NCBI GenBank assembly: GCA_027487435.1
Contig: JAIYDP010000142.1
Coordinates: forward strand, 1-58,463
Source: Verrucomicrobiaceae bacterium
Lineage (GTDB): Bacteria > Verrucomicrobiota > Verrucomicrobiia > Verrucomicrobiales > Akkermansiaceae
Direction: 5' to 3'
DNA length: 58,463 nucleotides
Under the pieces are notes generated by a model, which saw nothing but the letters and a program-made list of their open reading frames with translations, was not told the origin of the DNA and did not search any database. This document shows positions 2,578 to 48,700 of the stretch, in pieces. Position 1 is the stretch's first letter; each line of letters begins with the position of its first letter. Both the position numbers and the translations under genes were made by a program.

Positions 2578-5500
2578 ATGAGGGAAAACAGAAGTGCTCC
2601 TACAGAGACTGTAGGGGACTCTGGCGATCCTCTTGCAAAACTTCCTCTGAAACAATTGAAGCTTCCAAAGCTGAAGCTTTCAAATGTTCGGGGCAGCGCC
2701 ACTGTAGTTCCACTCGGCGAAGATGGTTCCCGGTCTGGTGCGGAACCAAAGAGAGTCTCGATTGATCCGAACGCGATCAAGGACGTCATGGACAGAGCTG
2801 AAAACTCTCAGATTGAACCGGATGCGAGCATCAAGGAGACGCAAACACCAGAGAGCTTGGCGTCATTCGTCGCCGATTCTTCTGTCGATGCAGCGGGGCT
2901 TGGATCGAAGGAGAAGCGGTCTTTCAAAGACTTTCGAAGAAGCTTCAGCCAACTCATTTTGCGAGAGGAAAAGAAATCCGGTGAGACCGAAGAAGATGCT
3001 TTGGTCAGATCGCTGCTCTTTGCACTCTCTCACTCATTCAGCGACGGACGAAGACCCTCTTCCTCTTCGGAAATCAAAATTTATTCCGAAGATACGCTCG
3101 CAACATCGTCCAGTTCCCCCTGTTCGACTCTTTCATCCTCCTCGCCATTTTGCTCAACTGCGTGTCCCTTGCCGTGCAGGACCCCCTCTGCGACGACAAC
3201 CGCGTGCCGCTCCCTGGCTACGAAGACATTCACGTTTGCTCTGATGTAATACCACGCATTTTGGATTCCTCGGAATATGTATTCACCGCGATATTCACCT
3301 TCGAAGCATTTCTCAAAGTCATCTCTTTTGGTGTCATTTTGCACCCCGGGGCATACCTTCGCAGCGGCTGGAACTGGCTTGACTTCATCGTCGTAGTCCT
3401 CAGGTTCGCCTCGTCCGCGTGAGTGCTCACAGCCCGCAGCCTCCTCTCCCTGTCCCCATCCATCAGCAATTACTCCGCCCTCAGAGCCTTCCGCGTGCTC
3501 AGACCCCTCCGCACAATGACCCGCATCCCAGGTGCCCCAGTTGCGACTGCCCTTCGCTCACGCTTTGCGCAGGTATGCGCGTCCTCGTCAACGCCCTCCT
3601 CAAAGCAATCACCCCTCTTGGAGACATCCTCGTCTTCGCCATTTTCTTCTTCATCCTCTTTGGGATCCTTGGCACGCAGCTCATGATGGGCACTTTACGG
3701 AACCGCTGCGTCTTTCAGGATGGCCCCTTGAGAGGTCTCCCTGCGGAGGGACTCCACGAGCGCTGTTCCCTCTCCGTTTTTGGTGGACGTGTGTGCGGTT
3801 TGGTGGGGGGATACTCGACCGCATGCCGCGAAACTGACGTTACCGGCATGCCCTTCGAGAACTCACCCCAATTCCGCGGTGCCATTAGCTTTGACAACGT
3901 TGCGATGGCGTTCTTGACGTTGTATCAAGTCATTTCGAACGAGGGCTGGACAGAAGTCCTCTACTTGGTCCCCCAGCTCACGGTCAAATCCTGACCCTTC
4001 AAGTTCCAAGACGGTTGGTCGCTGCATGGTGCACGGCTTTATTTTTTCTTCTCCAGCCTCATTGGCGGCATTTTCTTGACCAACCTCGCCCTCGTCGTCG
4101 TCTCCTCAGCCTTCGACTCCGCCTCCCTCGACGACGCCGTGCAGACCCTTCGGCAGCAGCGCCGCTTAACGCTCTTCCAATCCCGCAGAGGTGGCCAGGA
4201 CTTTCTGTTCGCCCTCTTTGCCAACGAGTGACTGACCTCGCAGGCTTTGGCTGCGGCTGCGGAAGCCTGTCATCCAGTTTGAGAGGTTCGTCAGATTCGT
4301 TTGGAACTACGAGTTCGAATGCACGCACGCAATGCGGCTGCGGCTGCAGCCTTTCCTCGCCCGCAAGGTCGTGCAAGCGGTTGTTATTTTTGCCATTTTG
4401 GTCAACACGATCGCCCTTGCGATGGAGAATTATCAGCACGACGTGTTTGTTGAAAACTACAGCACCTATTGCGTCTCCTCCTTTTGCGCAACGGCGGACC
4501 TAGCAGACCTTGGCATGCCGTCGTCATTTAAGAGTATTTTAGGTCCACAAGCGACTTTGATGGATGAATTTTGACACCTCTGCAGAGAACCTCAACTTGG
4601 CGTTGACGGCTTTCTTCTTCCTCGAGATGCTCCTCTCCATGCTCGCCTACGGTTTCATCAACTACTGCAAGGACTCCTCCAACCTCTTCGACGCCCTCAT
4701 CGTCACCGTCTCCATCGTCGAGATCATCCTCGGCTACGTCATTTCCCTCGGCAACACCGGCCTCACCGTCCTGAGGGGGTTTCGACTCCTCCGCGTCCTC
4801 AAACTCGCCAAGTTCCTACACTCTCAGCCCTCCGCCCCCACTCACACCTCACAGGTCATGGACGTCCCTCCGAAAGATCATCACCGCCGCTCAGAAGGCT
4901 CTCATCTCCATTTGGCCCCTCTCCCTCCTCCTCGTCATATTCATGTTCATCGTCGCCCTGTTGGGGATGCAAATGTTTGGCGGTCGCTTCGTCAGTGTCG
5001 ACCCGGACGGCGCCATCACCATCAGCCGCTCCAACTTCGACAGCTTCTTGCCCGGCAGCACCGGGTTCGGAGCTTTCATCACCGTGTTTCAGGTGACCCT
5101 TGCCATGACGCGCATCTCACGCTGCGGTAGCTCCTGACGGAGGAGAACTGGAACGACGTACTGTGGGACGCCATCAACTATGTTGGCTTCTACAGCGTGT
5201 TCTTTTTTGTCATTGTCAACCTCATTGGCGGATGTATGCAGGGTCTTGTCGAACCTGACGTCCCCAGATATCATTCTCAACCTTTTTCTTGCTATTCTCA
5301 TCAGCTCCTTTGTCGATCATTCCTCCAGCGTAGAGGACCAAGTGAAGAGTGTGGAGGAGTCCAAACAGTCCGTCGTCGTCAAGATCATCACCAACAATGT
5401 CATCTCCCGCTTGCAGGCGGCTCGCATGGACTCTGCCCTCGCCATGTCCGCTCGCGGCACTGCTCCATCGGACTTTGTCTCCAGCTCCGTCTCCCCCGTC

Positions 5501-8500
5501 CCGAAGGGCCTCAATTCAAGACCAGCAGAGCCGCACAGTGTCCGCGCTGTCTTTCGCCAGACTGCTGCGAGGGTGCATGCGGCGCTGACGAAGTTCTACA
5601 AGTCGTCGACGTTCTGGTGGATGACGATGAGCATGGCGTTGCTGTCCTCTGCTCTGCAGTTCAACGACCACCCCAACAACCCCATCGACAACGAATTTGA
5701 GAAAGTAGGCCGGGGCACTTGTTGAGCTCACAGCCTCAGATCATCGCCTACATTGACATCGCCATCACGATCTATTTCGCAGTCGAGTTCTTGTTCCACC
5801 TTATCGTTTGCGGGGTGTGGAAAGGAGACACGGCATGCATGCGAGACCCTTTCAGCTGGCTTGACTTGGCCATTTTAGTCGTCAGCTCCTCCCTCTCCTC
5901 TCGCCTCTTACCCTCCGAGGTCCCCTCCGTCCCCTACGTCCTCGAGTTCTCCATCGATTCGACAACATTTGGCCCAGTGGCGACATACCTTTGGGTCGGC
6001 CGGTCGTTTCGCCCTCTTCGCATCCTCAACCGCTACTTGCCCATGAAGGAGTCGACGTGGTTTATCATCTCCTCCGTCCCGGACATTGTCAACGTCTTCG
6101 TCGTTGTCCTTCTCTTCTTTTTCCTCTTCGCCGTCCTGGGCGTTCAGCTCCTCAAGGGCTCCCTCTGGAACTGCTACGTCCCTGGCATGTATCCCCGGCA
6201 GTTGCTCACCCGTGCGGCCCCCCTCCGCCTTAGCTCACCGTTCGCAGAGTTTGCGAACGGGACTGAGATTTCGAATTTCATCCATTGCGCCTCTGCGGGG
6301 GGGTCGTGGGAGAACGTCGAATGCAACTTCGACAACGTCGCGCTCTCCTTGAGATGCCTCTTTGAGACCTCGACCTTCGAGGGTTGGACGATCGTTTTGC
6401 GCAACGTCGTCGACAGCATCTCCGTACATCGCCTTTTGATGCCATCGCTCACCAAAACCAGGCTGGCGTCGCTCCCCGGCAGAACTCCAACCCGGCCATG
6501 TCCGCGTACATCGTCGTCTTCCTTCTCATGGGCTCCTTCCTCCTGATCAACTTGCTCGTCTCGGTCGTCGTCGAGAAGTACATCCTCTACAAGAAGCGCC
6601 ACCATGGCGAGGAGAATTTAAACGCCACCCAGACCCGCTGGCTTGGTTTTTCCAAACGCTTTTGCGCCTGAGTCTTTTAGAAATTCAAAAGCAAATAGTC
6701 AGAATTCGCATTCCCCGCATCTACACCCCCCCCCGCAATGTCATTCGTCGTGGGTTGTTCCGTTTTATGCAGCACAAGTGGTTCGAGCGCTTCAACACAA
6801 CCGTCCTCCTCACCAACGTCGTCATCCTCGCCCTCCCTTACTTTGGCATGACGCCGTGGTACGAGGAGCTGCTCAGTACCCCCCCCCCCCTACCTCCTAA
6901 CTCTTCAGCAAATCTTAACATCGCCTTCATCGTCTACTTCCTCATCGAGATGACCCTCAAAGTGCTTGCCTTCGGCCCTGCGGACTACTTGTACGACATC
7001 TGGAACCGCTTCGAGGCCCTCGTCAACGTCCTCTCCGTCCTCGGCTTGTTCTTGGAGATCTCCTTCGCTACGGGGAAAGAAATCTCCCTCATACGCATCA
7101 TCCGCGCCGTCCGCGTGTTGCGCCTCATCCGCGGCCTCAAGGGCCTGAATTTTCTCTTTCAGACCATCCTATATCCGCCCAATACTTCCTCTTCTTTCAA
7201 TTCTCATTTCATTGCCTCACCTTTCGTTTGTTTTTGCCTTAACTCTGGTCACTATGTCGACCAAAGCGCTGCTCACCATTGGCGGGCTGCTCATCATCGT
7301 GTATGCCGTGTACGCCATGCTGGGGGTGTTCCTCTTCTACAACGTCGCACACGGCGCGTACATCGACGACCACGCGAACTTCGATAACTTCGGTACTGCC
7401 TTCATGGTCATGTTCAGGTCAGCTGGAGCTCTTTGACGTTGTTGCTGAGATGGCCCTCAGGTGCAGCACGGGGGAGAACTGGAACTACCTCATGCACGAG
7501 TGCCGCAGAGGCCTTTGCAAAAACCCCTCCAACCCCGACGGCTGCGGCGGGGAGATCGTTTCGTTGGTCTTCTTCGAGTCGTTTCAGCTCTTTTGCTCCT
7601 TCATCATGCTCAACCTCTTCATTGCTATTATCCTCGACAATTTCAACACCACCGTCGCTGATGACAACTCCATCCTCCCTGCCGTAATTGCATCTTATTG
7701 ACTGCAGCCATCAACCCCGACCTGTCTACATGGACCTGATTCCGCAGGATGCGATCGAGTTCTTCACAGCCAAATGGTCTCTCTACGATCCCCACGCCCA
7801 GGGCACCATCTCCTTTGAGCACGTAGGCAAGATGATCCAGCAGCTGCCCCCACCTCTTGGCGTCGGCATGAGATACAACGAAATCAAGATTTTGAAGGCC
7901 TTGCGCACCCTCCCGCTCCACATTTGGCATGGGCGCGTGCACTACATCGACCTCCTTCATGTCCTTGCTGAGAGAGTCGCTGGAACAGAGTAACCCCCCC
8001 CTTGCGGTGGACAGATGTTGAGCCTCTCTCTTTATCTTTCGTTTATGTTGTTCAGCATATTCCAGTTCGATGTCTGACCTGACCAGAATGCCCTTTGGGA
8101 TGGCCGCTCAACAAGACCTTTCACGATTCCGCATGAAGATGCTTCGGTCGGCTATGAAGCCATTCCGGGCAGATGGACAGCGGTGGCTGATCCGGGAGGT
8201 GTACGCTTCGATGACAATCGCGAGATTTTATCGGGCGCACCGGGAGGTCAAGAAGGAGGCGTTGTCGAAGAGGAACAAAGAGGACATGCTGAAGGAGGCT
8301 CGAGAGGTTGTGCAGCGCGCGAAGGACACTGGCCAACTTGACTCGAACGTTGCTGTTGACTACACCGTCATCCAGGACCGCATGTCGGTTGTTGTCAATG
8401 CCAAGAGCGGTCAGGTGATGGAAGTCAACCGTTCGCGGCTTACCGTCGTCAACGACAACGGGATGTCGAAGGAGGTCGACACGGCCGCAATTGGAATGAT

Positions 8501-9302: not shown

Positions 9303-12300
9303 TCATTCGCCACTTCCTCGAGTCTGCACCGACTTCACAGCCGCGGAGAGGTCGTCCTCCTCCCGCCCTTCGAAACTCCGGCCTTTGAGCGCATTCATCG
9401 CCGTTGCCCCTGGCCGAACTCGCGCAAACACGTGAGCCGGCAGCTTCTTCAAGACAACCTTCCTTCGAGGGCCAGCAGGCGGAGGAGGCGGAGGTAGAGG
9501 ACGGGCTGCCTTTGCTTTGGCGCTCTTCTTCCATCGAGAGACGATGAGGTAGAGGGTGGACTGCAGGACATTTTCGGAGACGAAGACGCTGGAGTTCGAC
9601 TCCACATCTGAGAGTTGCTGCATGAGGACGGCGACGATCAAATTGAGCATGATGAAGCATGTGAGGCTGACAAAGAGGATGAAAAACAAAGGGGAGCCCA
9701 AAGGCTGTCCACAAGTCCCGTCGCAGAGCGGGTCCGAAGGGTCACATAAACCCAGCGACTCGACTTCAGCGTCAGTCAAGCAGCCCGGTAGTGCGTGCAT
9801 CACACCAGCAACGTCTCCGCGCTGGAGAGCGTCGCGGGCGCTTGAGAGAGAATTGCGTGCGCGTGAGCCAGGCCCAAGAGCACAAGCGGTCATGAGGGGG
9901 CCCCAGTTGTCGGCGGTGGAGAGGCGGAAGAGAGTGAGCAACGCCATGCCAACGTTCTCAAAGGTTGCATGGGCATTGAGCCGAAGGGGGGGCGCGACGA
10001 ATGCGCATTGCGGGCGACGGTCGTTGACAACGCAGAGGCGGCCGAATAGTTCGACCGCGAGGACTCCGAAGACGAAATAGAGGAGGGCCAAGAGGCCACC
10101 GAGGTTGCCGACTTGAGGAAGAGAGTGCACAAATGCGTTGATGATGTTCCGGAGACCGTTAAACGCCTTAACAATGCGGAACGCTCGAAGCACCCGCACA
10201 ACGCGGACGATGCGGAGGGAGCGAAAGAGGGTGGGATTAATGATGGAGGACGCGCCAATCGCATCGGCGACGGTGGTTGCAAAGGAGATGAACACGAGAG
10301 AGGCGTCGAAGAGGTTCCAGCGGGAGGAGTAATAGCCGCGTGGTGTGAGGGCAACGAGCTTGAGGAGGGCTTCTGCGGCGAAGAGGAGGGTGAAGAAGGC
10401 GTTGGCAAACTCGATGAGAGTGCCTTGCCAATGGCCCCGGCGGAAGCTTTCAAACGCCATGGCGGCGACGTTGAGGACGATGAAGCTAGCGACGAAGGCG
10501 TCAAATGCCGTCGATTCGACGACGAGGCGGAGGGTCGCGCGCCAGGACGTGGACGCGTCGTTAGGATCGTGTGAGACTGCCATGGAGGCGTCGCTATTGA
10601 TGGCCTTGAGGGCGTTGCTCTTGCGGAGGTCCTTCATTTTCTTGTACACGTCAGCGGCGGCCAGATGGTAAGAGTCGACAAACACGCCGATGAAGATGTT
10701 CAAGACGAAGAAGGAGCCGACGATGATGAAGGCGACAAAGAAGATGGCGACAGGCTCGCTGTTGTACTCGATGGCGCCACTGGCCTTGCCCGTCGATGCA
10801 ACGCCGTCCCAAACAAAGTCTGACCAATTGTCCTGCGACACAAGCGTGAAAAGGGCAACCATTGAATTCAAAAAATTGTCGAAATTGACGGCACGATTGT
10901 ACCATTCACGTGGAGTTCCGTCAACTGCAGCCCCAACGCAATCGCTGCGGTTGAGGACCGATGGGTCCGAGCATTTGTAGAGGCTGCCGCCAAGGATTTC
11001 AGTCCCAAGGATTGCGAAGATGGCAAATGCAAAGAGAGCGATGACGGCTGTGTTGACGATGGGCTTGACGGAGCGAGAGATTGTCGCGATAACGACTCGT
11101 AAGCCTGTGGCGCGGCTGATCAATTTGAGGGGCCTCACTGCGCGGAAGACTCGCAGGGTGCGGAGAATGCTGAGGGCGGAGGACGTTCCGGTCTGAAGGG
11201 AGATGACGGTGTCAGCGACGGAGGAGGCGACAATGACGAAATCCAGTTGATTCCAGCGGGACGAAAGGTAACCCAGAACACCAAGCCCTAGCATTTTGAT
11301 GATGGCTTCAAGCAAGAAGATGGCGTTGAGGATGAGGTTGAGCATGTCGATGGCTGCAGCCTCTGCATGGGACTTGCCTGGCCGATCAATAGCAAGGGCA
11401 AGCGAGGAAATAACGATGACGGCTAAGATGGTGTTGTCAAACGACTTGCGTAGCAATAAGTCGCGGATGATTCCACGCCATTTCGACGTCGGCGGAGGAA
11501 GAGGCTGCGAATCAGCTGGGAAGATCTTGGTGGAAAAAAAGTAATGAAGGAGAAAGCGGCGGATGGAAGATGCGAAGGTGCCGAACCGAGGGGCCACCTC
11601 CACGGGCGACTGCTCAGCGAGAAGATGGGGGTCGTCCTCATAGTTACCAACCTCTTCGATGACTACTGCAACAAAGAGGTTGAACAGCAGATAATTGCCG
11701 ATGACGATGATGAGGACAAAGTAACCAGCGCTCCAGCCGCCGAGGGCTCTCTCTGCGAGAAAAACGAAAGCCGGCCAATCATCAAATGTAAGAACTTGCA
11801 TCACTGCAATGGCGGCGCGGCCAACAGAGTCAAAGTTTTTCCTGGGAACAACGGATGCGATGAAAGCTTCATCTGAATCAGAGGAAGAGGTTGACAGCCA
11901 CTCAGTTGCTGGGCGGGTCGTCTGTTTGAAGGTGTAAGTGACTTCATATGGCGCGAACAGGCGGGAAGCATTGATTGCGCTGACGGAAGCAGGAAAGGTC
12001 GTCGTGACGCCATTGACGGCGACATTAACACTCGTGCCGAGGACGATCTGGACTTCTGATGGGACATAGGAGAGTTTCCCGCCGAAGAGGGAGTTCCCGA
12101 GGATAGCAAAGATGAGGAGAAAAAGAAAGAGCAAGAGAACAAGGGAAGCGACCGAAGCTGTGGACTTGACAATCATTCGCAGCTGTCGCTGGAGCGATGG
12201 AAAGGACTTGAAAAGGGCGAGGAGGCGCAAAGCTCTCAGCATCCGCAGCGCAGCGATGCCACTGCGGCCGCTATCACAGTCTGTGGCGGACGCGGCAGCG

Positions 12301-14337
12301 GAGACAGCGGAGAGGCAGCACTGCAAAGACTTGAGGGCTAGGGGTACTTCAGCCAAAGACACGCCGACAACTGCAAAGTCCATGACGTTGTACCAATCAC
12401 AGATGTATTTGACTGGCCCAAAGGCTGAGACTTTGAGCAACATTTCAACAACAAAAAAGGCCGTAAACGTGAGGGTCGCGATCTCTTGGCCGGCATGAAA
12501 GTACGGACAATAAGACTGTGTGCCGCAGTCGTGTTCGGCCATGAAGACGATGAAATTGAGGAGGATTACAAAGATCATGACCTTGGCAACAACGCCGTTG
12601 ACAAACTGAACGAATTTCTTGTGGTGGGTAAGGCTGCAGCGCCACGACTGCGGGAATTAGGCGGAAACGACAAGGGCGCATACGTTGCGAGAGGCTGCGA
12701 GGGCATGGAGGACGCTGGATTTGTTTGCATCGGATTCGCCAACCTTGGATACAAAAATGAAGACAGCCTCCTTTGTCTCTGTAAACTTTGACGATATGAC
12801 GACAAGGAAGAGTTGAATACATAACAGAGGGCCGACAAATGCAAGGGTTACAAAGTAGACGAAGACCCAGAAGGAGTGCACGTCCTGAACCGAGTACATC
12901 AAGTCAGTCCAGTTGGCGAATGTCATGACTTGCAACACGGATATTAACGCATGGCCAATGTCATCGAATGAGGCGGCAATATTGGAGGGATTCAGCCCAA
13001 GCGCCAAACACTCGAAGCCGTCGGGGCAAGACGCCATACCTCCGTCTGAAGCCATGCTGCAAAGGCTCCCTCCTTCCATCAAATTGAAAGTCGAAATGCT
13101 GTAGCACCGCTGACGGAGCTTTCCCTGCCAAAGTTGAACGCCAACGAGGCCAAACACAACGAATATGAAGGCGACGAGGGCAACAACATTAACGAGGTAG
13201 GGAATACACTGAAGCTAGCGGGTAAGATCAGGGACTGCGTGGGGCAACCAAAAGCACGACAAGAAATCGAAGCTCATCAAAGCGACTGATGGCGCGCAAC
13301 GGCCGCAGCACTCGAAATGCCCTGAGCACAAGCACGGACGAGATTGAAAGGGAGGGGATAAGATCGATGACACCCAGGAGGACGACGACAAAGTCGAGTA
13401 CATTCCAGGGGTCTCGAAGGTATGTCCGCTTTTCGAAGACAAACCCGAGAGCAACAATTTTGATAACACATTCAACTGCGAAGAATACTGAGAAGAAGAA
13501 ATCGGCTGTGTCCAGGGTCTGGCGCTTCTCTGAGATCGGATTGACTTCAGGGATATCGAGAGGGTCAAAAGCTGCCATGAACGCAACGTTGACGAGAATA
13601 ACGAGCAGTACAAATCGGTCGAACCATTTGTTCTCAATGAGGCGAATGAGAGCAAGCCTCAGCGGGTTCTGACGGCCCAAAATAAACAGCGATGAGACCG
13701 CAAACCTGCCAAAGTCGACTCCATCGGCTTTGCCCTTTGGTTGTTCCACAAGCTTTGCAACCTCAAGCAACTACGACGTCAGTACCAGCTGGATGCAGCA
13801 TCTTACTCTCTTCACTTGCTGCGCACCGAGCTTTGCAAGAGACGACTGAATCGTCTTCGGCTTGGCTGCAGCGAGCTTCTTTGACAACGTCTGCTGCGTC
13901 CTGGGAGTGACCATAATGCTGCTTCTGCGACCGCGCCTGTCATCATGGCGGGATGCAGTCGGAGAGGGCGTCGTGTGCTCGATCATTTCGGAGATCCGGT
14001 TTTGCATTGATGAAAAATCCAATGCTGTCGTTGCGGACGAAACAACTCCAAGCGCATCAGGGCTTGAACTTCTCGAGACAATCGCACCTTCTCCGCGAGT
14101 TTCTGATTTGTCTTCCTCAGGACTGCCTACGACGCGGCTGAATCGTTGTGCTGGAGGCCGCAGAGAAGTGAACTTGTCAGATGGGAGGGGCAGTGGGACC
14201 AATCTTCTCTTTGGAGGTATTCTGAGAACTTGCTCCGAAGCAGTTTCAATCAAGTCGGGCGAATGCTGCAAGTTTCGTTCCAGCATTCGCCGCAGCTTGA
14301 AGATGTCCTCTTCGTTGAACGACCCCTCTCCATCCAT
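9303..14337 (-). CDS. Four-domain voltage-gated cation channel with A/D/D/D filter (paralogue A)
   Basis: The gene starts at the ATG at 14337-14335 and ends at the TGA at 9305-9303. Three introns (13771-13815, 13215-13248, 12648-12683; 45, 34 and 36 nt) leave 1,639 residues. The N-terminus is about 170 disordered residues. Repeat I begins NKWFDRFVLLVILVN; its S4 is LRAFRVLRPLRAISR. The 1,091-residue main exon holds the last S1-S6 of the remaining repeats with intact S4 helices (LRALRLLALFK, LRTLRVFRAVRPLK, VRVVRVLRAFRIVK). Filter residues are Ala 12915-12917 (TFANW), Asp 11781-11783 (TFDDW), Asp 10830-10832 (SQDNW) and Asp 9909-9911 (TADNW). The family usually has EEEE (Cav), DEKA (Nav) or EEKE (NALCN). 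The loop before the last S6 has the Cys-rich TCGQP motif seen in the family. The tail is short with a polyproline run. It is convergent with channel 1 and head to head with its paralogue at 14913. Confidence 0.9.
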
Positions 14338-14912
14338 GTAGGGCCGTCAGTTGGCAAACGTTCCGTAAACAAGAGAGAGAGAAAAAGATGCGACTTGTAT
14401 TCAAATCGATGGGTAAATTGGAAGAGGTCACGCTCACAACATGGGCACCACGAGCACTTTTACGTTCGAGTAACTCCTACCATTCTTGAATCAGATCCAA
14501 CACAATAAAGCAATAGCAGCTGCAGTCAGCAACAGGCTGCTTCATCGACATAAAAATAATCGAAGAATTGTGTTCAGGGGCGGGATGCTTGCAAATTGCA
14601 CCACCTCTATTTCCTTAAAATTTAATCCTTAAAACTTGGAGCCTTTTCTGTATTTGCAGCGTTTTCTTCAAATAATTTTTGCTAATTTTTCGCGGGCAGA
14701 GTTTCCTCTGACTCTCTGCACTCAAGCTGTGATTGTGCAAGTCGAGTCGCGGCAAGTACAATTTTACTTGCAAGCCTGCTTTGACCTTTATGCACAAGGG
14801 AAATCTGGATTGCAATCGCCGAAGAAAGGCTCACGCGTCGCTAGAACAAGAGGTTTGTTCCTCTGCCACAACGGACACCCATCAACATCAAAATCTAATT
14901 TTGTGACCAGAA
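14338..14912. promoter_or_regulatory. Shared bidirectional upstream region of the two A/D/D/D channels
   Basis: These 575 bp separate the start codons of two divergent channel paralogues, so both promoters lie here. The middle is A/T-rich. It contains the repeated element TCCTTAAAA at about 14612-14620 and 14626-14634. No convincing extra exon of either gene was found, though a short untranslated exon cannot be excluded. Confidence 0.55.
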
Positions 14913-17900
14913 ATGGTGGAGGTTGGGCCGTTTGTTCCTGGGCGGCCTACTGATATCCCCTTTGACGAACAGGACTTTTCCCCGACCGATTCCCATGAGT
15001 TGAGTGATGTCCCCAATGAGGAGTTGGAGCAGCGCCTCGGCGAGTCAAGCTCAGTGTCACAAGAACGGCTTGAGCGTCATGGGAAGCCTGTTGCTGATTC
15101 ACCCTCTCCATTCGTTCCAAACGCACAAGTGGCTAGTGCCGAAGGTCAGCGGATATCTCAGAACAATTTCCAAATGCAGCCTTTTGGCGATTCCGTGGGT
15201 CCTGTTGTTTCGGTTCGAAGTGATCTTGTTTCCGGGCATGCAGGCCCTGACACTCCCATTGACGATCTATTTTTCCCTAAAGAAGCTCAGCTCCCTGGAG
15301 CAATCGATGAGTCTGCAGAGGAAGAAGAAGACAACCCTGGCAACAGTCACGAGTCTTTTATTGCAGCCAAGCTGCAGGGCAGTCTCAACAGGTCGCCCGT
15401 GCCAAAGGGTTCCTCTCCCACATTCTCAAAACCCGAGGACAAAGCTACCGGGGGTAAAAATCGTCCACGGTTTGCATATCAAACTTCTTCGGCTCAGCTT
15501 TGGAGGTCAGGCAAAAAGGACCCTCGAAAGGAGACAACGAAGGCTGTTGCGAGGACGTTGAACCAACTCGGCGCTGCGCCAGTCCAGCAGGTGAGCTGGC
15601 TTCCCCGCGTGCTCTGACCTGGAAGCTGTTGGAGGCTGCGAAACAGCGGACGACGACTGCCCAAGTGTCGGACATAGATTTTTCAAAATACAATGCAAGA
15701 TCCTTGTTCTTGCTGACGCTTGGCAATCCATTCCGCCGAGTCCTGATTCGAATGGTGAGCAACAAGTGGTTCGAACGCTTTGTCCTCGTCGTCATTCTCG
15801 CGAACGTCGGCTTCATGGCCGCCTATGACCCCGTCGATTCCCCCGTCGTAAATCCCTCCTCGCCCCGACGTGCCGTCCTCGAGATGGCGGATGTTGTTTT
15901 CTCCATCTTCTTTGCAATCGAATGCGTGTCCAAGATCGTTGCGCTCGGCTTCATCGTGGGTGAAAAAACGTACCTAAGAGACGTGTGGAATGTCCTTGAC
16001 TTCATTGTCGTGCTGCTTGGAGTAATCGACTTGTTGCCCTCCCTCTCGATATCCTCCGTCCTTGTGCTTCGAACATTCAGGGTCCTGCGGCCTCTCAGAG
16101 CGATCAGTCGTTTCGGCGAACTTCGATTCCTTGTCATCCTTTTGGTAATGTTTTGTTTTTTGGCCTGAGTCATGCAGTTGCAGTGCATCCCTCACCTTGT
16201 GAACGTCGTCTGTCTCATCGCCTTCATTTTCGTAGTGTTTGGGCTGGTTGGTGTGCAGCTGTGGCAAGGCAAGCTACGGCAGCGCTGCTACAATGTTCTT
16301 TCTTTTGGCGTCATGCCCAACTCGCCTGTCTGCTCGTTGCCATTTGATGCCGGAATGTCGCTCTGCCCGGATGGGTTTGAATGCCTTTCCCTCTCGACGA
16401 ACCCGCTGACAGTGGCAACTTCGTTCGACACAATTGGAGACGCCATGATCTCAGTCTTGCAGGTCATGACTTTTGCAAATTGGACAGACCTTATGTATCG
16501 AGTGCAAGACACGCACTCCTTTTACATTTTCGTCTATTTTGTGCTTCTCTCCGTCGTTGGCCCCTTCCTGTCCGTCCAGCTCTTTCTGGTCGTCATCTCA
16601 ACCAAGTTCACCGAGGCAAAGGCTGCCATCACCGCTCTCGTGGGCCCTGCCAACAAGCGAGCCTCCTTCATCGTGCGCCGCTTGTCCCGCCTTGGTGGAA
16701 GCTCCGTTGATGTCCTCATGCTGCACTTGCAGACACCCACTGACCATTCCGACGGTTGGCTTAAAGTTATCAAACGTCTTCGGTTGATTATATTTAGAGC
16801 CGTCATGTCCCCCCGCTTTACGTACACGATCATGTTTGTCATTTCCGCCAATTTTGTTGTTCTCGCATTGGAGCACGATTGTGAGGGCCAGAACTACTGC
16901 CCCGATTTCAATTTGTTCCAACAGTACTCGTCCCTCGTCTTCACCGCCTTCTTCTGCATTGAGCTCGTCCTCAAAGTGTTTTGCTATGGCCCCAAGGAAT
17001 ATTTTTTGGACAAGTACAATCTTCTTGATGTTGCCGTTGTCGTCGTGTCCCTCATTGAGGTGATGTCTTGGCCGTGCAATCACTCACGCCCCGCCAGGTC
17101 CCACAGTCGCTTCTGTCCATTCGATGCAGCTCAGGTGTAAGAGACGTCTCCTTAATCGACTGCGACAGCGGACGAAGCGGCATCGGGGCGATTCGTATGC
17201 TTCGAATCCTCCGCTTGCTCGCATTGTTCAAATCCTTCCCAGCCCTCCAACGCCAGCTCCGCCTCATCGTCAAGTCCACCGCCTCCGTCGCCTCCCTCAT
17301 CGTCCTCTTGGGCCTCTTCATCCTCATTTTCGCCATTCTCGGCAACTCTTTGTTCGGCGCAAAACTCTTCCACTTCCCCGACGAGGTCCCCATCGTACGG
17401 GGCACCCTCGTCAACATCGCCCTCCCTTCCGTCGACGCAACCTACCCTGCGGCTGTCGAGGACGTATTTGTCGCCCCTTCGGGTGAGTTTTTGTACAACG
17501 TGTCCTTTCGCTTCGCTCCTCCAACGCAGGCTGCCATGACCGCAGCTGTGTCGTCACTCCAAAGCGATTCCATGCCATTCATTGCGTCCGTCGTCCCTCG
17601 CAAGAACTTTGACTCAGTCGGGCACTCGTTCATCGCTGTGCTCCAAATCCTTACGTTCGATGATTGGCCTGTCATTGTGTTCCTGACTGGTCGTGCTTTG
17701 GGTGGTTGGGCTGCGCTGTACACTGTCATCATCATCGTCATCGGCAATTTCCTTCTTTTTAACCTTTTCGTCGCCATTGTCATCGAAGGTCTCAGCAACG
17801 ACGGGGACATTGCAGACCCTGCTGACCCAGTTCAATCGAGCGAAGAAACTGTGACCAAATCGTTTTCCCACCGAGTCTCCGCTTTCAAAGCGTCTTGCGT

Positions 17901-20592
17901 CCGCATGCTTTGTTGCTGTCGGTCGGGCGCTGCAGCGACAACGTCAGACACCCAGTCGGCGACGGACGCTTCCACGCCTGATGCGATGCTCAGCTTGGGC
18001 TCCATGTCCATGGAGACCTTAGACCGTGTCACCCACATCAATGCCCCTTCGCTGATTTCTCGCCGACCGCAGCTGGACCGTTCGCTTTTCATATTTTCGA
18101 TCGACAGCAGGTTCAGACGCTTCCTCCTCCGCGTTGTGTTCCATCCGCGCTTCGACCACTTCATCCTCTTGTGCATCATCATTTCCTCCTGCTCTCTCGC
18201 CGTGGAGCGCCCGGTGATGTCGCTGAACGAGCGATTCGTCCTCGACATGATCAATTTGGTGTTCAATGCCATCTTCCTCTTGGAAGCTCTGATCAAGATC
18301 GTGGCCATGGGGTTCCTCACGTACATCCGGTCGCATTGGAACAAGCTTGACCTGCTTGTGGTGGTGTCAGCTGTCATCGACACGTCAATCTCCTTCTCGA
18401 CAGGCGCATCATCCTCCTTCCGCATTCTTCGCACTCTCCGCATTTTCAGAGCCTTGCGACCCCTCCGCCTCATTTCCCGTGCCACCGGCCTTCGCATTGT
18501 AATGTTGACCCTCTCGCACTCCCTCCGCCCGATTGTCAACACAGTCGCAATCACTCTTTTCTGCTTCGCTATTTTTGCAATCCTCGGCATGCAGCTCTTT
18601 GGAGGCGCCTTGTCGTCATGCAGCGACGTGACCATTCCCATGCAGCAGATGTGCGTTGGTGTTGCAGTTGACGGCACTGTCCGCAAGTGGGCAAACAGAG
18701 CCGTCAACTTTGACAACTTCCTGAATGCGATGGTGTCCGTCTTCAGCTTGGCGTCGTTGGACAATTGGACTGACTTCCTTTGGGACGGCGTGTCCTCCAC
18801 CGGACGGACGACTGCTCTTGTCGAATATGCCAACGAAGCAGCCGCTCTCTACTTCGTGCTTGTCATAGTCCTCGGTGCTTTCTTCATCGTCAACATCTTT
18901 GTCGGCGTTTTTGTCGACGCTTACCACGTCTCGTCAGACTTCGTTGCGAGAGGCTACCTTGCCTTCCGCCGCCGAGCTGCTGCCCAGCGGCACGGACAAG
19001 TCCTTGCGAAGCTTGCCGAGGCAAAGCACGCACACGAATTGGCTGACATGGTTGGAGAAGACGAAAACGGCGAGGTTGGGGCAAGAGGAGTTGCCCCCCC
19101 TGTTCCCGGCGCGTTTGACATGTTTCGCAGCATCATTTTGGACGTCGTGTCGCACACCTGGTTTGACGGCTTCTCCGCGTTGATGATTCTTCTGAACGTC
19201 ATCACAATGATGTTTGAAACGTACCGGTCGTCGTCATGGCAGATTCAGTTCATAAACATTACCAACTACTTCTTCACACTCCTCTTCGGTGTCGAGGCAT
19301 TCTTCAAACTCCTCGCCTCCCACCCCACCCGCTATTTCGCCGAAGGTTGGAACATTTTTGACTTCTTTGTCGTCGTTGTCTCTTTCGCTGGCGTTCTGTC
19401 GGACAGCTCCGGCGTCAACGTCGCCATCAACCCCACAATTCTCCGAACTCTGCGAATCTTCCGCATCTTCCGCATCCTTCGAGCCTTTCGCGTCCTCCGA
19501 GCGACGAAAGGGCTGCAGATGGTGGTCACTGCACTGCTGCGGTCCCTCCCCCAGATCGGAAATCTCTTTGGCATGCTCGTGCTTGAGTTCTTCGTCTTTG
19601 CTGTTCTCGGAGTTGAAATTTTCTCGCAAGTGTGTCTGGTGGACGACGTCCGCAGGCAATGCGCGTTTGTCGACCCTGCCGTCCTCGTCGACAGTCACGC
19701 GCATTTTCGAGACTTTGGCTTCGCTCTGCTGACTCTTTTTCGAATTGCAACTGCAGACAATTGGTCGCCCCTCATGTCATCAATGTCGACCACAACAACC
19801 GCTCGTGTCCCTGACGCTCTTGCGCAAGCTCGCGTTGCGATTTCACAAGGAAACGTCACCGGCGTGTTCGCGTTATTGGGGGGCTGCGTTAGCGACGCCG
19901 AAGTCGAAGCACTTGGCCTCTGTGACTCCAGCGAGCCATCGTGCACCGGGACGTGTGGCCAACCCGTTGGGGCGCCCATCTTCTTCATCACCTTTATTTG
20001 CCTTACGAGCTTCATCATGCTGAATCTCGTCGTCGCCGTTCTGATGCAGCAGCTGTCGGATGTTGAGAGTTCGCCAGCATCTCGGATATCTGAAAATGTC
20101 GACTCGGACATGTTTTTTCGCTTGGTTGCTATTTGGAAGAAGAATGCCAAGGCAAAGCTTGCGTCGGGAGTCAACAGCGCGGCGCATAAGGAGATGGAGG
20201 TGCGGCTTTGGATGACCAACAGGACGATGTTGGCGTTTGTGAGAGCCAAGCGAGCGCTGAAAGGGCTGAAGGCGGAGATGGACGAGCTCCCAACGTTTCA
20301 CGAAATCGTTGAGGACTCGTCAAGTGCTGGCGTTGGCTGCAAGGGCGACGGAGATGCGGGCGATCTGTTCCCCCGGAGGAAAGACCAAAGAGTGGACAAA
20401 GATCTTACGGACTACAGCTCCGTGTCTCGAGGCAGCGGGCAGCCTAATTTTGCTGTTGAAAACGAGAGCGGGGTTGACGCAAACTTCGTTGGAGTTTTCA
20501 GAGACCTGGATGCAAATGGAGGCGTTTCAATTGTCGATGGGAAATCGCCCATCCCAACTGAAATGCATGAGCCTCCTCTCGCACAAGCGTAG
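14913..20592 (+). CDS. Four-domain voltage-gated cation channel with A/D/D/D filter (paralogue B)
   Basis: The ATG at 14913 and TAG at 20590-20592, with introns of 35 nt (near 15591-15625), 33 nt (16145-16177) and 38 nt (17060-17097), give 1,857 residues. It is the same architecture as the minus-strand neighbour: an acidic disordered N-terminus of about 230 residues, then four six-helix repeats with full S4 sensors (LRTFRVLRPLR, LRILRLLALFK, LRIFRALRPLR, LRIFRIFRILRAFRVLR). Filter residues are Ala 16475-16477 (TFANW), Asp 17659-17661 (TFDDW), Asp 18760-18762 (SLDNW) and Asp 19756-19758 (TADNW). The repeat IV pore loop keeps the CVSDAEVEALGLC...TCGQP cysteine pattern of the paralogue. The C-terminus is longer than in paralogue A and ends with DLDANGGVSIVD at 20504-20539, which fits a single EF-hand loop. 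It is a cation channel by family; its selectivity cannot be predicted from this filter. Confidence 0.9.
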
Positions 20593-42795: not shown

Positions 42796-45700
42796 ATGCC
42801 TGACTCAAGATTACAATGGCTTCGAAGCACGATACGAATTTCCCTTCAAGGATGCACAGATGCTGCTTTGGATTCCCTCATGGGGGACGCGACGTCAATG
42901 GAACTAATTCTTCGCTACCTTTCAGCGGACACGGAGGCGCAGAGCCTTCTCTTTTACATGGATGAAACAGAAGAAGGTGGAAGAATGCATATTATTCTTA
43001 TTCTCTAGAAATTGAGCAAACTGCGGTGGAGACTTTGAACAAGTTGCAATCATCGAAGCCGTCTTCGCCTTCTCGGACTTCATCGAGGGCACCCTCTCGT
43101 GGAGACTCTGCTTCATTCGATGGAGCAGCTGATGCAGCTCCCGCTGCTGTCGATGGAGAGGATGCATCGCCCACTGAAGAATCTCAGCAAGAAGTGCTAG
43201 CCGTATCCCCTGCTGCTGAGCAACTGCAAGAGCTACTGAAGCTCAGAGTTGTCAGGGTTGTTTCTGACAAGTTGCCTGATGGGATTTCGGGTTCGCGAGA
43301 AGTCCTGTACGTAGTTCGAACCAACGCGGAGCCGATTCCGAATGTTGCCCCAGAGGACATTGAAGTTGCGATGTCCTCTCTTGAAGTCGGAGTTATGTGG
43401 GGCTCAAGTCTCAGCGTCCTTGAGCAGCTTATCACCGAGATTTACGCCCCATGTATTCAGCTTTTCTTTGCAAACTCGTCCAAGCCCACCACCTCGCAGC
43501 AGCAGTCCCAACAGCAACTAGTTCAGTTGTCAGACGCGGTGCAGGCGGAATTCCTTGCAAACATTCAGAAGTTCTCTGCGCAGATCCAGAATGTATTTCA
43601 GCAAGTGAGCCGCGAAGTTCGATTAGAAGTTATTTCGATCGACACCAATCGTCGTGTCGCTGAAATCGCCTCTGATGCGACCACAGTGGCGCAGCTTCAG
43701 CTCGCTCTCGAGAACTGGATCCCTGCCATTGCTTCAATCATTGAGCAAGAGAAAGGCAAGAAAGCTGTGGGGAAGGGTCCGCTCGCCGAGGTTGACTTTT
43801 GGCGACAGAGAGCTACTGCGTTTGGAACTGTGTACGAGCAGTTGAGTACTGCGCCTGTGAGGAAGATGATGGAGGTCATGGAGATTTGCTTCGAGTTGCA
43901 ATATGGTCAGTTCAAGCACTACTTTGCCGAGTTGTCGAAGCTCTACACGGAGGCGAAGGATAACGTGAAGTTTTTGACAACGCTGGAAAGACACTTCAAG
44001 ACTATCTCTCATGGCACTCTGAGCGCTATCGTCGAGGCCTTGCCATCGATGATGAACGCACTTCGCATGGTCTGGGTGATCAGCCGGCATTACAACACCG
44101 ACGAGCGCATGGTCCCGCTGATGGAGCGAATTGCGGAGGAAATAGGCGACCGAGTTGCAACGAGTATTTCAATCCGCTCTATTTTTCGGCAAGAGCCAAA
44201 AGATGTTATTCGCAAGGCGAATGAAGCGAAAAACGTCCTTGATAAATGGCGCGAGACGTACTACAAGGTATTCGTTGTGCTCTCTTTGATGGCCTTAATC
44301 TGCAGGTGAGGGAAAAGATTGAGACGTCTGGGCGTGACCAGAGGTGGGAGTTTGATAAGCGCCGGCTCTTTGACCGCACAAACTACATGGCGATGCGGTG
44401 CTCTGACATCATTGAGGCGTCGCAGGCTCTTGACCACTTCAACAACATCATGGGCCCTCAGCTCAAAGCCGTTACAGGAGATGCGGTTGCAATCGACAGC
44501 GTCCTGAAGCGCGTCGAGCATCTAGTCCTGCCCCTTGAGGCAATCCCGTTTGATCTCTTCGACAAGCGCTTTCAAGCGTCGTGGGACGCTGTTATGCACC
44601 GCTTCCGCACCGACGTTACGGAGATTGAGGAAATGACCAAGTCGTTCATCAATGCGTCATTCAAAACTCTGCGATCTGCGGAAGGTGCCTTCGATGTGCT
44701 GACGCACTTCACGGAACTGGCCAGCAGGGACTCTCTGAATAAGCAAGTGATGGAGAAGTTCATCGATATTCTGCACCAGTTCATGAAAGAGGTCGACGGC
44801 ATCCGTGTCATTTTTGATGCGAACAAAGACAACCCGCCTTCCAGCAAGAATCAGACCCCCGTTGCTGGTGCAGTTCAGTGGTCAAGGTGATGCTCATGTC
44901 ATATTTCTGACGCGCTGACCCCGTAGATCATTGTTCAGCCGTGTCAAAAAGACGATGCTCAAACTGCAGACTCTGCAATCGATGATGCAAGGCACGGAGG
45001 AGGGCCAGGCTGCAACCAAGTCCTACGTTGCTTTGGGCAAGTCAATGAGAGAGTTCGAGAATCGGCTCTACAAAGCTTGGGTCGCAACCATCGACCCCCT
45101 TGCGCTTAGCTTGCTGAAGAGGCCGATCCTTAAATCCCCAGAGAGTGGGAAGCTTGTCGTCAACTTTGGTCAAGAGCTTGTGCAACTTATCCGTGAGACC
45201 AAGTACCTCGACCGTCTTGGGTTCACCGTCCCTGAAGTTGCGCTGAATGTGGCCCTTCAGGAAGAGAAATTCCATCAGTTTGTTGGATCGCTGCAGCAGA
45301 TGTGCGACTTGATGCTGAATGTGCGGCAGTCCATTGATCCTGCATTGCATAAGCTTGTTGCACACAAGGTCCTTGAACTGGAAGACGTTCTGAAGCCCGG
45401 CTTGACAGCTTACAATTGGAATTCTCTTGGCATTCAGGTGATTCTTTGCATTTTGTTCTGACTTGGTAGGACTTCATTCAGAAGTGCAACAAGGCCATCA
45501 GCGTGTTCCAGACGTACAAAGCGTCCATTGAGAAGAACATCTTTGCAATCAATGAGATAGCACGCACCATTGAGGAGTCTCATATCGTTCTGTTGGATAG
45601 CCAGCCGGATGAGCTGCTCGATCTCCAGGAGTTCTTCGACCGCATTGAAAAAAAGAGGCTCGAGGTGGTGGAGTCGCTCGTGTTCAAGTACCGCCAGATA

Positions 45701-48700
45701 GCGCCGCTGCTTTGCAAGATCGAAGAAGTTGTCGCAGGGACAAATTCAGGGAAAGCTCCGATCATGCGGGAGTTCTACGAGTATGTTGAGATGAAAATAT
45801 ACACAGCGATTGTGAAAATGACTCTATCCGGCATGGAGGCATTCTCAAAGTTTCTTGGGCTGTCTGGTCGGAAGGATTCCCGTCGCGCTCGTATCAAAGT
45901 ATCTGCATTGTTGCATCCTCCGGACGTTCTCATTTCCCCTGCCCTCAATGAGATCCACAAGACTGTTGGGAAGCTTCTGAAGAACTGCGCCGACAGCTCC
46001 AAGTCTTTTGTCCGCTGGCTGCGATATTCTTGCGTTGAGACTCCCCCACAGCCCCCCCCCTCTGAAGAGGAGGAGCCTATTATCTTCAGCTTCTATTCGG
46101 ATGTGTCGGTCAACCAAAGCGTTATCAAGATGATGCTTTCCATCAATCAAAGCCTGCAGAAGACGTTTGTTGCTGTGGACCGTCGTGGCGAACCCTTCAA
46201 GAAGTACTTTCAGCTGTGGAAGGATGATCGCGCTGCCTCCATCGAAAAGTTTGCAAAGCGAGTCCCGAGCAATGTTGCGTACGACGAGCATCTCTCGCAC
46301 TATCAGCACATCTCCCGCAGCGCTGAGAGGCTCCCAACCGAAGCGAAGATTGGGTTTCTTCATGTGTCGTACGCGAACGCAATTCAAAGCATTCGGTCTG
46401 AGGCCCAGACATGGATTGACACCATCGGTCGATACCTTCATGACTCATCGTTTGCGATATACAGCGGCATCAAGGACAAAGTTGGCAAGTACCACGAGGA
46501 GCTGAAGCGGGTTCCTGATTCGCTTGATGAGCTCAAGACCCTTTTGAATGCCATCACTGAGATTCTCGACGTGTCAGCGGAGACGGAGAGGGCCATCACC
46601 GATGTATGCGAGAGGTATCGCACGCTGAGCCTTTACGGTGTCACCGTTGATGCGGCTGAGCTGGAGAGTGTCCTCCTCCTTCGTGAGGAGTGGCGGCAGT
46701 TGACTGAAGCTGCTAAGGTGGTTTCGTTGAGCATTACGGGGACGAAGAAGAAGTTTGTGGCAGTGACAAGGCAACAGATTGAAGGCTTCCAGGTGCAATC
46801 TAATGAGGTACTTAAAGATTTGTTGGAGAATGGGCCCGCGTCTAACAAGATGGAATTGGACAATGCTGCGGAGATGCTGCGCAAGTACATCGTAAACGTT
46901 GTTGCCGATGCCAAACTAACTTTGAAGGGAGACATGGCAGAAAAGAAGCAATCAAGAGATCAGCTTGTGCTTGCTCAGAAGCTCTTTGACATGGAAATGG
47001 TCAAATTCGGCGATTTTGCCAAGGCGGAGGACATCATAAACCTGCTGGGGATGATAATCAATCTCTACGTGGAGTTTAAGGAAGCTGAGAAGCAGTGGTC
47101 CGGCACATTGTTTTTTGGTCAGTTGGACACCCAAGCACTTGCTTCAAGTTGGCCCTGCCATTCGTCCAGTCCATTGATTCCGCAGATGTTGAGGCGTTTG
47201 CCATCCGTCTCCGCAAGGCTCCTTCCGATGCGTCGAGATATGCTGTGTTCGATAAAGTCGGAGATGCTATTTCGAAGTTCAAGCAGTCGTTGCCGCTGAT
47301 TTCGGATCTGAAGAACGACGCGCTGAGGGAGCGCCATTGGAAGAAACTCATGAAAGTGACTGGAAAGTCGTTCGACTTGGATCCGAAGTCCTTTACACTT
47401 GGGAAAGTGTTTCAAATGAATCTCGCGGAGTTCGGCGACATGATTGGGGAGATCACCAATGAAGCTATCAAGGTGTGATGTTTGTCTATCCTCTGCTCAT
47501 AGCACTCAGGAACTTGCCATCGAAAAGGCTCTGAATCAGATCACTGAAGTTTGGAAGACGATGAGGCTGGATTTGCATAAATATGCAAAGAATGGCAAGG
47601 ACCGCTCCTACATCCTCAAGTCAACGGACGAAATCACGGTTCTTCTTGATGACAATATGATGAACCTCAACTCGATGTCAGCGTCTCGGTTTTCTGGGCC
47701 TTTTATTGAGCAAGTGCGTGTATGGGAGAAGAAGCTGTCGATGACTGGGGAAGTGTTGGAAGCGTGGATGAACGTTCAGCGCAAGTGGATGTACTTGGAA
47801 GGCATCTTCGTTGGTTCGGATGACATTCGTCTGCAGCTCCCGGAGGAGGCCCGACGGTTCGACACCATTGACAAGGCATGGGTGAAGCTGATGCAGGATA
47901 CTGCGAAGAACACAGTCGTTCTTGTATTTCCCCGTCCCTCCTAGTTGCTGATGCAACCAGGAGTGTTGTTCTGTCGACGGGAGGCTGAACTTTCTCAACA
48001 GTCTCTCAAAGGATCTTGACATGTGCCAGAAGAGCCTTAGCGAGTATTTGGAGTCGAAGCGTAATGCCTTTTCTAGATTCTACTTCATCTCCGACGACGA
48101 ATTGTTGTCGATTCTAGGCACATCAGACGTTACGAGTGTTCAAGAACATGTTCACTAGTCGTTACACTCCTCTCATTCCCCAGATGCTCAAACTCTACGA
48201 CAATTGCGCAGCACTCATTTTCGCTCGCAACAATAAGATTATTTCGGGTCTTTCGCATTGTCCACTCTCAACTGACTTCTTTGCAGGCATGGTGTCTTCT
48301 GAGAGCGAGTCTTTCAACTTCAAAAACCCCGTCTCGACAGAGGGCGCCGTTGAGAAGTGGATGACAGCTGTTGAGGCTGAGATGCGCAAAACCCTTCACG
48401 GCATTACAAAGGAGGCCATTTTCCACTATCCCAAGGTGGAAATGTGATGGCGGGCTCCTGACACCTCAGACTCCGCGTATCAAATGGATTCATGAGCAGC
48501 TCGGCATGGTTGTGAATTCTGGTTCGCAGGTTTGGTGGACGTGGGAGGTGGAGGACACGTTTCAGAAGGTACGCGAAGGCAACAAGCATGGAATGAAGCA
48601 GTTCGCCGCCAAGTTGACTTCGCAACTGACCGACCTTGTCGGTGAAGTGCAGGGCGATTTAGAAAAAAATGTTAGAAAGAAAGTCAACACGCTCATCATC

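Follow-up and report, generated by a model that had tools for sequence, protein, structure and literature searches.

A predicted A/D/D/D selectivity filter in two head-to-head four-domain channel genes related to the T-type (Cav3) calcium channels

Introduction

The voltage-gated T-type (Cav3) channels are described as having a selectivity filter that is universally E/E/D/D, reading one ring residue from each of repeats I to IV (PMC6259924; papers are cited here by PMC number, each for particular passages). This filter is said to be always present from choanoflagellate to human, and the animal-type Cav3 to be confined to choanoflagellates and animals (PMC10120453). Further T-type features are a cysteine pair in the S5-P loop of repeat IV and additional cysteines in that of repeat I (PMC4436565), and Cav3.1 is reported to pass about 1 Na+ per 5 Ca2+ (PMC6259924). 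For protists, a survey of 277 channels gives D/D/D/D in ciliate subclade Ic and A/G/K/E in oomycetes (PMC5824947). Here we describe two predicted four-domain channel genes, chanA and chanB, which lie head to head in the window (the whole stretch of 58,463 nucleotides that was analysed, contig JAIYDP010000142.1) and have filters that read A/D/D/D. We lean slightly towards the view that they encode four-domain cation channels, predicted to be voltage-gated, from a sister clade of Cav3 in which E/E/D/D likely became A/D/D/D, and that their pores would admit Na+ as well as Ca2+, with the preference for Ca2+ reduced.

Gene Models and Filter Motifs

The genes and their filters are as follows (coordinates, strand, feature and, where given, its basis).

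14337-9303, minus strand: chanA, predicted four-domain channel gene of 1639 amino acids, ATG at 14337 and stop at 9303 (gene model, Pfam Ion_trans)
14337-13816, 13770-13249, 13214-12684 and 12647-9303, minus strand: exons of chanA (gene model)
12909-12923, minus strand: chanA repeat I filter, TFANW, Ala codon GCC
11775-11789, minus strand: chanA repeat II filter, TFDDW, filter Asp and a second Asp at +1
10824-10838, minus strand: chanA repeat III filter, SQDNW
9903-9917, minus strand: chanA repeat IV filter, TADNW
14338-14912, no strand: gap of 575 bases between the start codons of chanA and chanB (coordinates)
14913-20592, plus strand: chanB, predicted four-domain channel gene of 1857 amino acids, ATG at 14913 and stop at 20592 (gene model, Pfam Ion_trans, Cav3 as best PDB match)
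14913-15590, 15626-16144, 16178-17059 and 17098-20592, plus strand: exons of chanB (gene model)
16469-16483, plus strand: chanB repeat I filter, TFANW, Ala codon GCA
17653-17667, plus strand: chanB repeat II filter, TFDDW, filter Asp and a second Asp at +1
18754-18768, plus strand: chanB repeat III filter, SLDNW
19750-19764, plus strand: chanB repeat IV filter, TADNW

With splice sites placed by eye, from genomic DNA alone, each gene has three GT-AG introns of 33-45 bases, and introns 1 and 2 fall at identical protein positions in the two genes. Pfam Ion_trans matches three stretches (repeats II-IV) in the long frame of each gene; in repeat I, it matches chanB in both pieces and chanA in the voltage-sensor piece, and the chanA repeat I pore exon, which lay outside the Pfam scan, aligns to its chanB counterpart. 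As joined in the gene models, each predicted chain has four Ion_trans repeats, as Cav3 does. The S4 segments of repeats I-IV have 6, 6, 7 and 8 Arg/Lys residues in chanA, and 6, 6, 8 and 8 in chanB. We rejected the idea that these are pseudogenes, given open frames of 1091 and 1174 amino acids, conserved pores and saturated silent sites (see below). The 575-base gap may, we infer, contain a shared promoter. Scans of the window for tRNA genes and Rfam families gave no matches.

An earlier note on this DNA had read the filter of both genes as A/D/D/D, unlike EEEE, DEKA and EEKE, and the motifs with their codons bear this out. The filters are neither E/E/E/E, as in the high-voltage-activated Cav1/Cav2 channels, nor D/E/K/A or D/E/E/A, as in Nav, and the genes also lack the combination of E/E/K/E or E/E/E/E with Arg-poor S4 segments that marks NALCN and Cch1 (Cch1 being outside the sequence comparison). 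Neither filter contains Lys. That some other acid might occupy the repeat I filter site, a point on which the note's claim depended, was checked against Cav3.1 (6kzp); since chanB residues 468-555 align to it without a gap, the Ala stands at the position of the Glu. The nearest repeat I acid in chanA and chanB is an Asp at +4, and most Cav3 rows have that Asp plus the Glu. The two Ala codons differ (GCC and GCA), so a single copied base error cannot account for both; base error was thus rejected, and a third paralogue, chanD, from another contig of the same assembly, has Ser at this site. The +1 residue of repeats I and III is Asn in chanA and chanB where it is Gly in Cav3. Counting acids at the filter, +1 and +4 sites gives 6 for chanA, 6 for chanB and 7 for chanD; a fish Cav3 has 7 plus one Lys.

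Relation to T-type Channels

In a comparison with all PDB chains, the top matches to chanB are Cav3.1 (632 bits), Cav3.2 (614) and Cav3.3 (576), followed by Nav1.4 (429), Cav1 (415) and NALCN (136), which places its best solved match, a Cav3, 203 bits above Nav1.4. For repeats III-IV of chanC, another channel gene of the window and a shorter query, there is little gap (Cav3 274, Cav1 255, Nav 236). Aligned Cav3 rows read T/SLEGW, TQEDW, SKDGW and TGDNW, i.e., E/E/D/D, with which chanA and chanB agree in repeats III and IV alone; both also share with Cav3 the Asp at repeat II +1 (TFDDW). The S5-P loop of repeat IV contains two Cys in chanA, chanB, chanD, their relatives and Cav3, and none in human Cav1.2 or Nav1.1, the match of the cysteine columns being approximate.

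A tree of 25 rows was built on repeats III-IV, with repeats I and II excluded from the data. It has a clade of 15 rows, cryptophytes included (support 100/100), in which chanA, chanB and chanD form one group (100/99) whose sister is P0007, an E/E/D/D sequence (97/91). The six animal Cav3 rows are a separate group and chanA and chanB lie outside it; chanC falls outside the T-type-like clade in the trees. Because three groups always fall this way on an outgroup root, the 25-row tree alone cannot show that Cav3 is the sister, and for this reason a domain tree was made, in which repeats III and IV of 18 of the 25 channels are separate rows and the root is on five bacterial one-domain channels. Here the 15-row clade, Cav3 and P0119 are joined at 99/96 for repeat IV and at only 85/97 for repeat III, and Cav1.2, Nav1.1 and chanC fall outside this group. 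A topology constrained to group the window genes with Cav3 and P0119, to the exclusion of the remaining 15 rows, was rejected (p-AU, from the approximately unbiased test, 0.001), and the window genes therefore belong first to the protist clade. These trees contain no choanoflagellate, ciliate, oomycete or CatSper rows, Cav1.2 and chanC are long branches in them, and chanD has an odd letter make-up. On the aligned sequences, the preferred reading of A/D/D/D is an E/E/D/D filter in which Ala has replaced the Glu of repeat I and Asp that of repeat II, not a new all-Asp design.

Filters of the Relatives

Filters were surveyed in 235 aligned rows, i.e., 232 proteins listed by two database searches (the best 120 of 3154 and the best 120 of 5669 hits) plus chanA, chanB and chanD; the window's own fragments (P0001, P0002, P0003 and P0236) and two weak hits (P0237 and P0238) were left out. 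E/E/D/D accounts for 223 rows, E/A/D/D for four, and A/D/D/D and E/S/D/D for two each, and S/D/D/D, E/C/D/N, A/E/D/D and x/S/D/D (without repeat I) occur once each. Both A/D/D/D rows are from the window, so that among the matches listed the filter is as uncommon as the earlier note had supposed (2 of 235). By name, nearly all of the E/E/D/D rows are animal Cav3, with many isoforms and close kin, and the count shows rarity near Cav3, not across all protists. A search with repeat I fragments alone gave three hits, namely the window's own fragment and the voltage-sensor fragments P0237 and P0238, which have no filter.

The nearest relatives among the matches listed are the jgi sequences P0004, P0005, P0123, P0007 and P0125, all E/E/D/D. 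Guillardia theta and Hemiselmis andersenii have E/A/D/D, Hanusia phi has E/S/D/D, and P0006 and P0091 have Ser in repeat II together with loss of the filter Trp (TASDI and TTSDL). Within the clade, repeats III and IV have Asp in all 15 rows, and repeat I is acidic in all 11 of the other rows that cover it. Fourteen of the 15 rows are readable at both repeats I and II, and where the acid is lost in these it is from one or the other, never from both. The 25-row tree implies a single loss of the acid in repeat I, which falls in the lineage of this genome (24 rows, P0091 being without repeat I), and four changes of state in repeat II.

The assembly contains two further genes of this family. The readable motifs of chanD (contig C352; four repeats, with the N-terminal end beyond the contig edge) are TFSEW, TFDDW, SGDNW and TADDW, i.e., S/D/D/D with a Glu directly after the repeat I Ser. 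Those of chanE (C329), which is truncated ahead of repeat I, are TFDDW, SADNW and TADNW, i.e., ?/D/D/D. Of the four genes, three have a readable repeat I, which is non-acidic in each, and all four have Asp in repeats II-IV; a search of the same assembly with P0004 gave no family member beyond chanA, chanB, chanD and chanE. At its own locus (L010, G000:C329, 1-3006), chanE apparently shifts frame close to the repeat III filter with no intron there, which could be an assembly error or the mark of a decaying copy.

The relatives differ in their accessory domains. P0006 and P0091 have a precomputed C2 domain that lies, by eye, between repeats I and II. Precomputed EF-hand domains are present in the cryptophyte-type relatives P0008, P0009, P0124, P0125, P0126 and P0160 (by eye between repeats II and III in P0008, P0009 and P0160), where they are likely to be a built-in Ca2+ sensor.

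The kind of channel is known, and the A/D/D/D filter is a variant of it; the protist clade beside Cav3 seems undescribed in the literature searched. No paper on an ADDD selectivity filter came up in a literature search (the slash notation is unsearchable), and searches on cryptophyte and calcium-channel terms gave no paper on a T-type-like channel among the matches listed. The main text of the 277-channel survey, as far as it is drawn on here, does not mention A/D/D/D, which may be listed in its Figure 3 or supplements (PMC5824947).

Divergence and Probable Selection on the Pore

Across 1337 aligned core codons, the identity of chanA and chanB is 55%. Of 379 fourfold-degenerate third positions, a fraction of 0.665 differ between them, close to the 0.669 expected at random, and silent sites are therefore saturated. 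Over the same divergence the pore loops of repeats I-IV are 85, 73, 68 and 55% identical, as compared with 26-30% for the linkers, 22% for the N-terminal part and 34% for the C-terminal part. The repeat I loop, Ala included, is the best conserved of the four, and because it is 85% identical despite saturated silent sites, the alanine of these predicted proteins has likely been kept by selection. The earlier note had drawn selection from the identity of the motifs in two otherwise diverged genes; that identity alone is insufficient, as genes that are 55% identical could share four sites, but the saturation test makes the conclusion likely. The pattern is less fixed than the note implied: A/D/D/D holds in chanA and chanB, but chanD has Ser, then Glu.

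Predicted Permeation

In the mechanism that we favor, depolarisation would move the S4 segments and the pore would open. Three carboxylates rather than four at the narrow ring would weaken Ca2+ binding at the high-affinity site, and the Asn that replaces Gly at +1 of repeats I and III would loosen this site further. The Asp residues at repeat II +1 and in repeat III would still admit Ca2+ entry and passage, so that with this combination Na+ would be less blocked by Ca2+ than in Cav1.

In Cav1, Glu-to-Ala in repeat I leaves 0.75 of the Ca2+ conductance in simulation and 0.73 of the Ba2+ conductance in experiment; these values are 0.37 and 0.45 in the repeat III mutant, and 0.03 and 0.2 when the Asp at repeat II +1 is mutated (PMC12146731). 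As judged from the alignments, chanA and chanB retain the two positions essential to Cav1 conduction, namely the Asp at repeat II +1 and the acid of repeat III. In CavMr the +1 Gly is described as key to Ca2+ selectivity, and it is said to be conserved among mammalian Cavs in repeats I and III (PMC7041947); any change in the EEEE ring is described as abolishing or lowering high Ca2+ affinity (PMC8184209). Because the ring is altered, the +1 Gly is replaced by Asn, and Cav3.1 is already leaky, a Ca2+-permeable pore that likely also passes Na+ is the reading we prefer.

Several observations weigh against this proposal. The slow-muscle DHPR of zebrafish has Gln in repeat I, and inward Ca2+ current is lost in the mutant with this change (PMC8184209); therefore, loss of the repeat I acid can silence a pore rather than loosen it. 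In simulations of Cav1, the Glu-to-Ala mutants of repeats II and IV keep 1.06 and 1.23 of the Ca2+ conductance (PMC12146731), so that there are more dispensable sites than repeat I, and the results of Cav1 mutants may not apply to a pore that is T-type-like. The role of the repeat II +1 Asp is also described in two ways: PMC12146731 cites a minimal part for it in selectivity, and PMC10120453 takes it as marking the calcium-selective class. With 6 acids, the bulk charge of chanA and chanB is not unusual beside the net charge of mammalian Cav filters, which is 5 to 7 (PMC7041947). The repeat IV pore loop (55%) merely equals the core average in identity, the branching order among chanA, chanB and chanD is unsettled in the 25-row tree, and the repeat I loop has 4 Cys in chanB (by eye) vs 6 in the fish Cav3 P0012. 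Finally, an Owenia fusiformis Cav3 (P0023) also has Ala in repeat I (SLAGW, A/E/D/D), so the loss is not unique; P0023 is otherwise an ordinary annelid T-type channel, and its alanine is either a second loss or a sequence error.

Of the alternatives, the one that survives best is that chanA and chanB are Ca2+-selective anyway, the missing repeat I acid being offset by the Asp residues at repeat II +1, in the ring (three) and at the outer sites. This we consider unlikely, though not to be set aside lightly: the Asp at repeat II +1 is kept, the six acids are inside the mammalian range, the Cav1 repeat I mutant retains about three quarters of divalent conductance (PMC12146731), the Glu at repeat I +1 of chanD may replace the lost acid, and N/E/E/E is among the calcium-type pores listed in PMC6259924. 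Against these points stand the loss or lowering of high Ca2+ affinity upon changes to the EEEE ring (PMC8184209) and the replacement of the +1 Gly of repeats I and III by Asn.

It is improbable that Na+ is the main charge carrier, which would make these lysine-free sodium channels derived from a T-type channel. Cav3 has been made sodium-permeable by changes around the same filter (PMC9694082, PMC10120453), and in the beacon scheme neutral +1 residues other than Gly accompany sodium permeability (PMC10120453); the same scheme links the Asp that is kept at repeat II +1 to calcium selectivity or calcium block, and there is no Lys in either filter. A protein with little or no inward Ca2+ current, serving mainly as voltage sensor, is more improbable still. 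The zebrafish DHPR, in which the natural repeat I Glu-to-Gln change abolishes Ca2+ current (PMC8184209), offers a precedent, but an idle pore would be expected to drift, whereas pore loops I-III of chanA and chanB are 85, 73 and 68% identical vs 55% for the core and 22-34% for linkers and tails.

Three repeats of chanA and chanB have the T/SxDxW form, which the earlier note had likened to CatSper pores, overlooking the comparison with Cav3, but we give hardly any credence to a single-chain pore on the CatSper plan, since four repeats are predicted in one chain vs separate one-repeat subunits, Cav3 is the best solved match and the neighbor in trees (made without CatSper rows), the repeat IV cysteine pair likewise favors Cav3, and the repeat III and IV motifs of Cav3 itself are SKDGW and TGDNW. 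The likeness is superficial, and CatSper2/3/4 are given as examples with Glu in PMC10120453.

Other Channel Genes and the Source of the DNA

The third channel gene of the window, chanC, is intron-rich and four-domain, with an E/E/E/E filter.

2578-7644, plus strand, outer bounds approximate: chanC (internal comparison)
3935, 5137, 6373 and 7468, plus strand: chanC filter motifs SNEGW, TEENW, TFEGW and TGENW, respectively

The three channel genes (chanC, chanA and chanB) are inside about 18 kb. At 43026-57194 (plus strand), the window also contains a dynein heavy chain gene in many pieces, which have a weak match, under the Pfam cut-off, to the axonemal DYH2/5/8 coiled coil. From this gene, the organism likely has motile cilia or flagella.

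The assembly (G000) is classed as prokaryotic and has 9.39 Mb in 506 contigs; nine genomes of its genus are 2.9-4.4 Mb. Spliced eukaryotic genes are present on its contigs C332 and C352. It is likely a mixed bin, the stated 0.61% contamination overlooking a eukaryote. Among 96 related bacterial genomes searched, none of the nine of the same genus matched, and 30 of the 96 gave short matches in frames of about 266-459 amino acids; five of the six loci inspected are one-domain channels with TLESW. Viral contigs scanned with part of chanB gave no relative.

Comparison with Known Channels

A wider proposal, which we put forward tentatively and at somewhat less than even chances, is that a T-type lineage exists outside animals and choanoflagellates, one branch of which dropped the repeat I acid family-wide (A/D/D/D twice, S/D/D/D once) and thereby came to have lysine-free voltage-gated channels for Na+ and Ca2+. 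If true, this would be a further natural route, besides lysine, beacon loss and turret splicing, by which a four-domain pore is released from calcium selectivity. The sister clade, with its cryptophytes and other eukaryotic sequences, is a natural mutagenesis series that changes one ring position at a time, and it makes the contribution of each repeat to Ca2+ selectivity testable with evolved rather than engineered pores. Such a clade contrasts with the universal E/E/D/D described for Cav3 (PMC6259924) and with its described limit to animals and choanoflagellates (PMC10120453).

Among described systems, ciliate Ic (D/D/D/D) and oomycete (A/G/K/E) channels are alike in having, respectively, an all-Asp ring or a repeat I Ala in a protist four-domain channel, but the oomycete filter carries Lys; both are likened here by their description in PMC5824947 only. 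The zebrafish slow-muscle DHPR shares the natural loss of the repeat I acid, and differs in being L-type, with repeat I as the changed site, and non-conducting for Ca2+ (PMC8184209). The cryptophyte channels and the jgi sequences P0004, P0005, P0123 and P0007 are of the same 15-row clade and have Asp in repeats III and IV; the cryptophyte channels are unlike chanA and chanB in that they keep the repeat I acid, lose that of repeat II (E/A/D/D, E/S/D/D) and have EF hands.

The animal Cav3 channels resemble chanA and chanB in their four repeats, Arg-rich S4 segments, Asp in repeats III and IV, Asp at repeat II +1 and cysteine pair in the repeat IV S5-P loop, and are both the best PDB match and the sister in rooted domain trees. 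They differ in that chanA and chanB have Ala for Glu in repeat I, Asp for Glu in repeat II and, at the +1 sites of repeats I and III, Asn instead of Gly, in that chanB has fewer cysteines in the repeat I loop, and in that chanA and chanB both lie outside the animal Cav3 clade.

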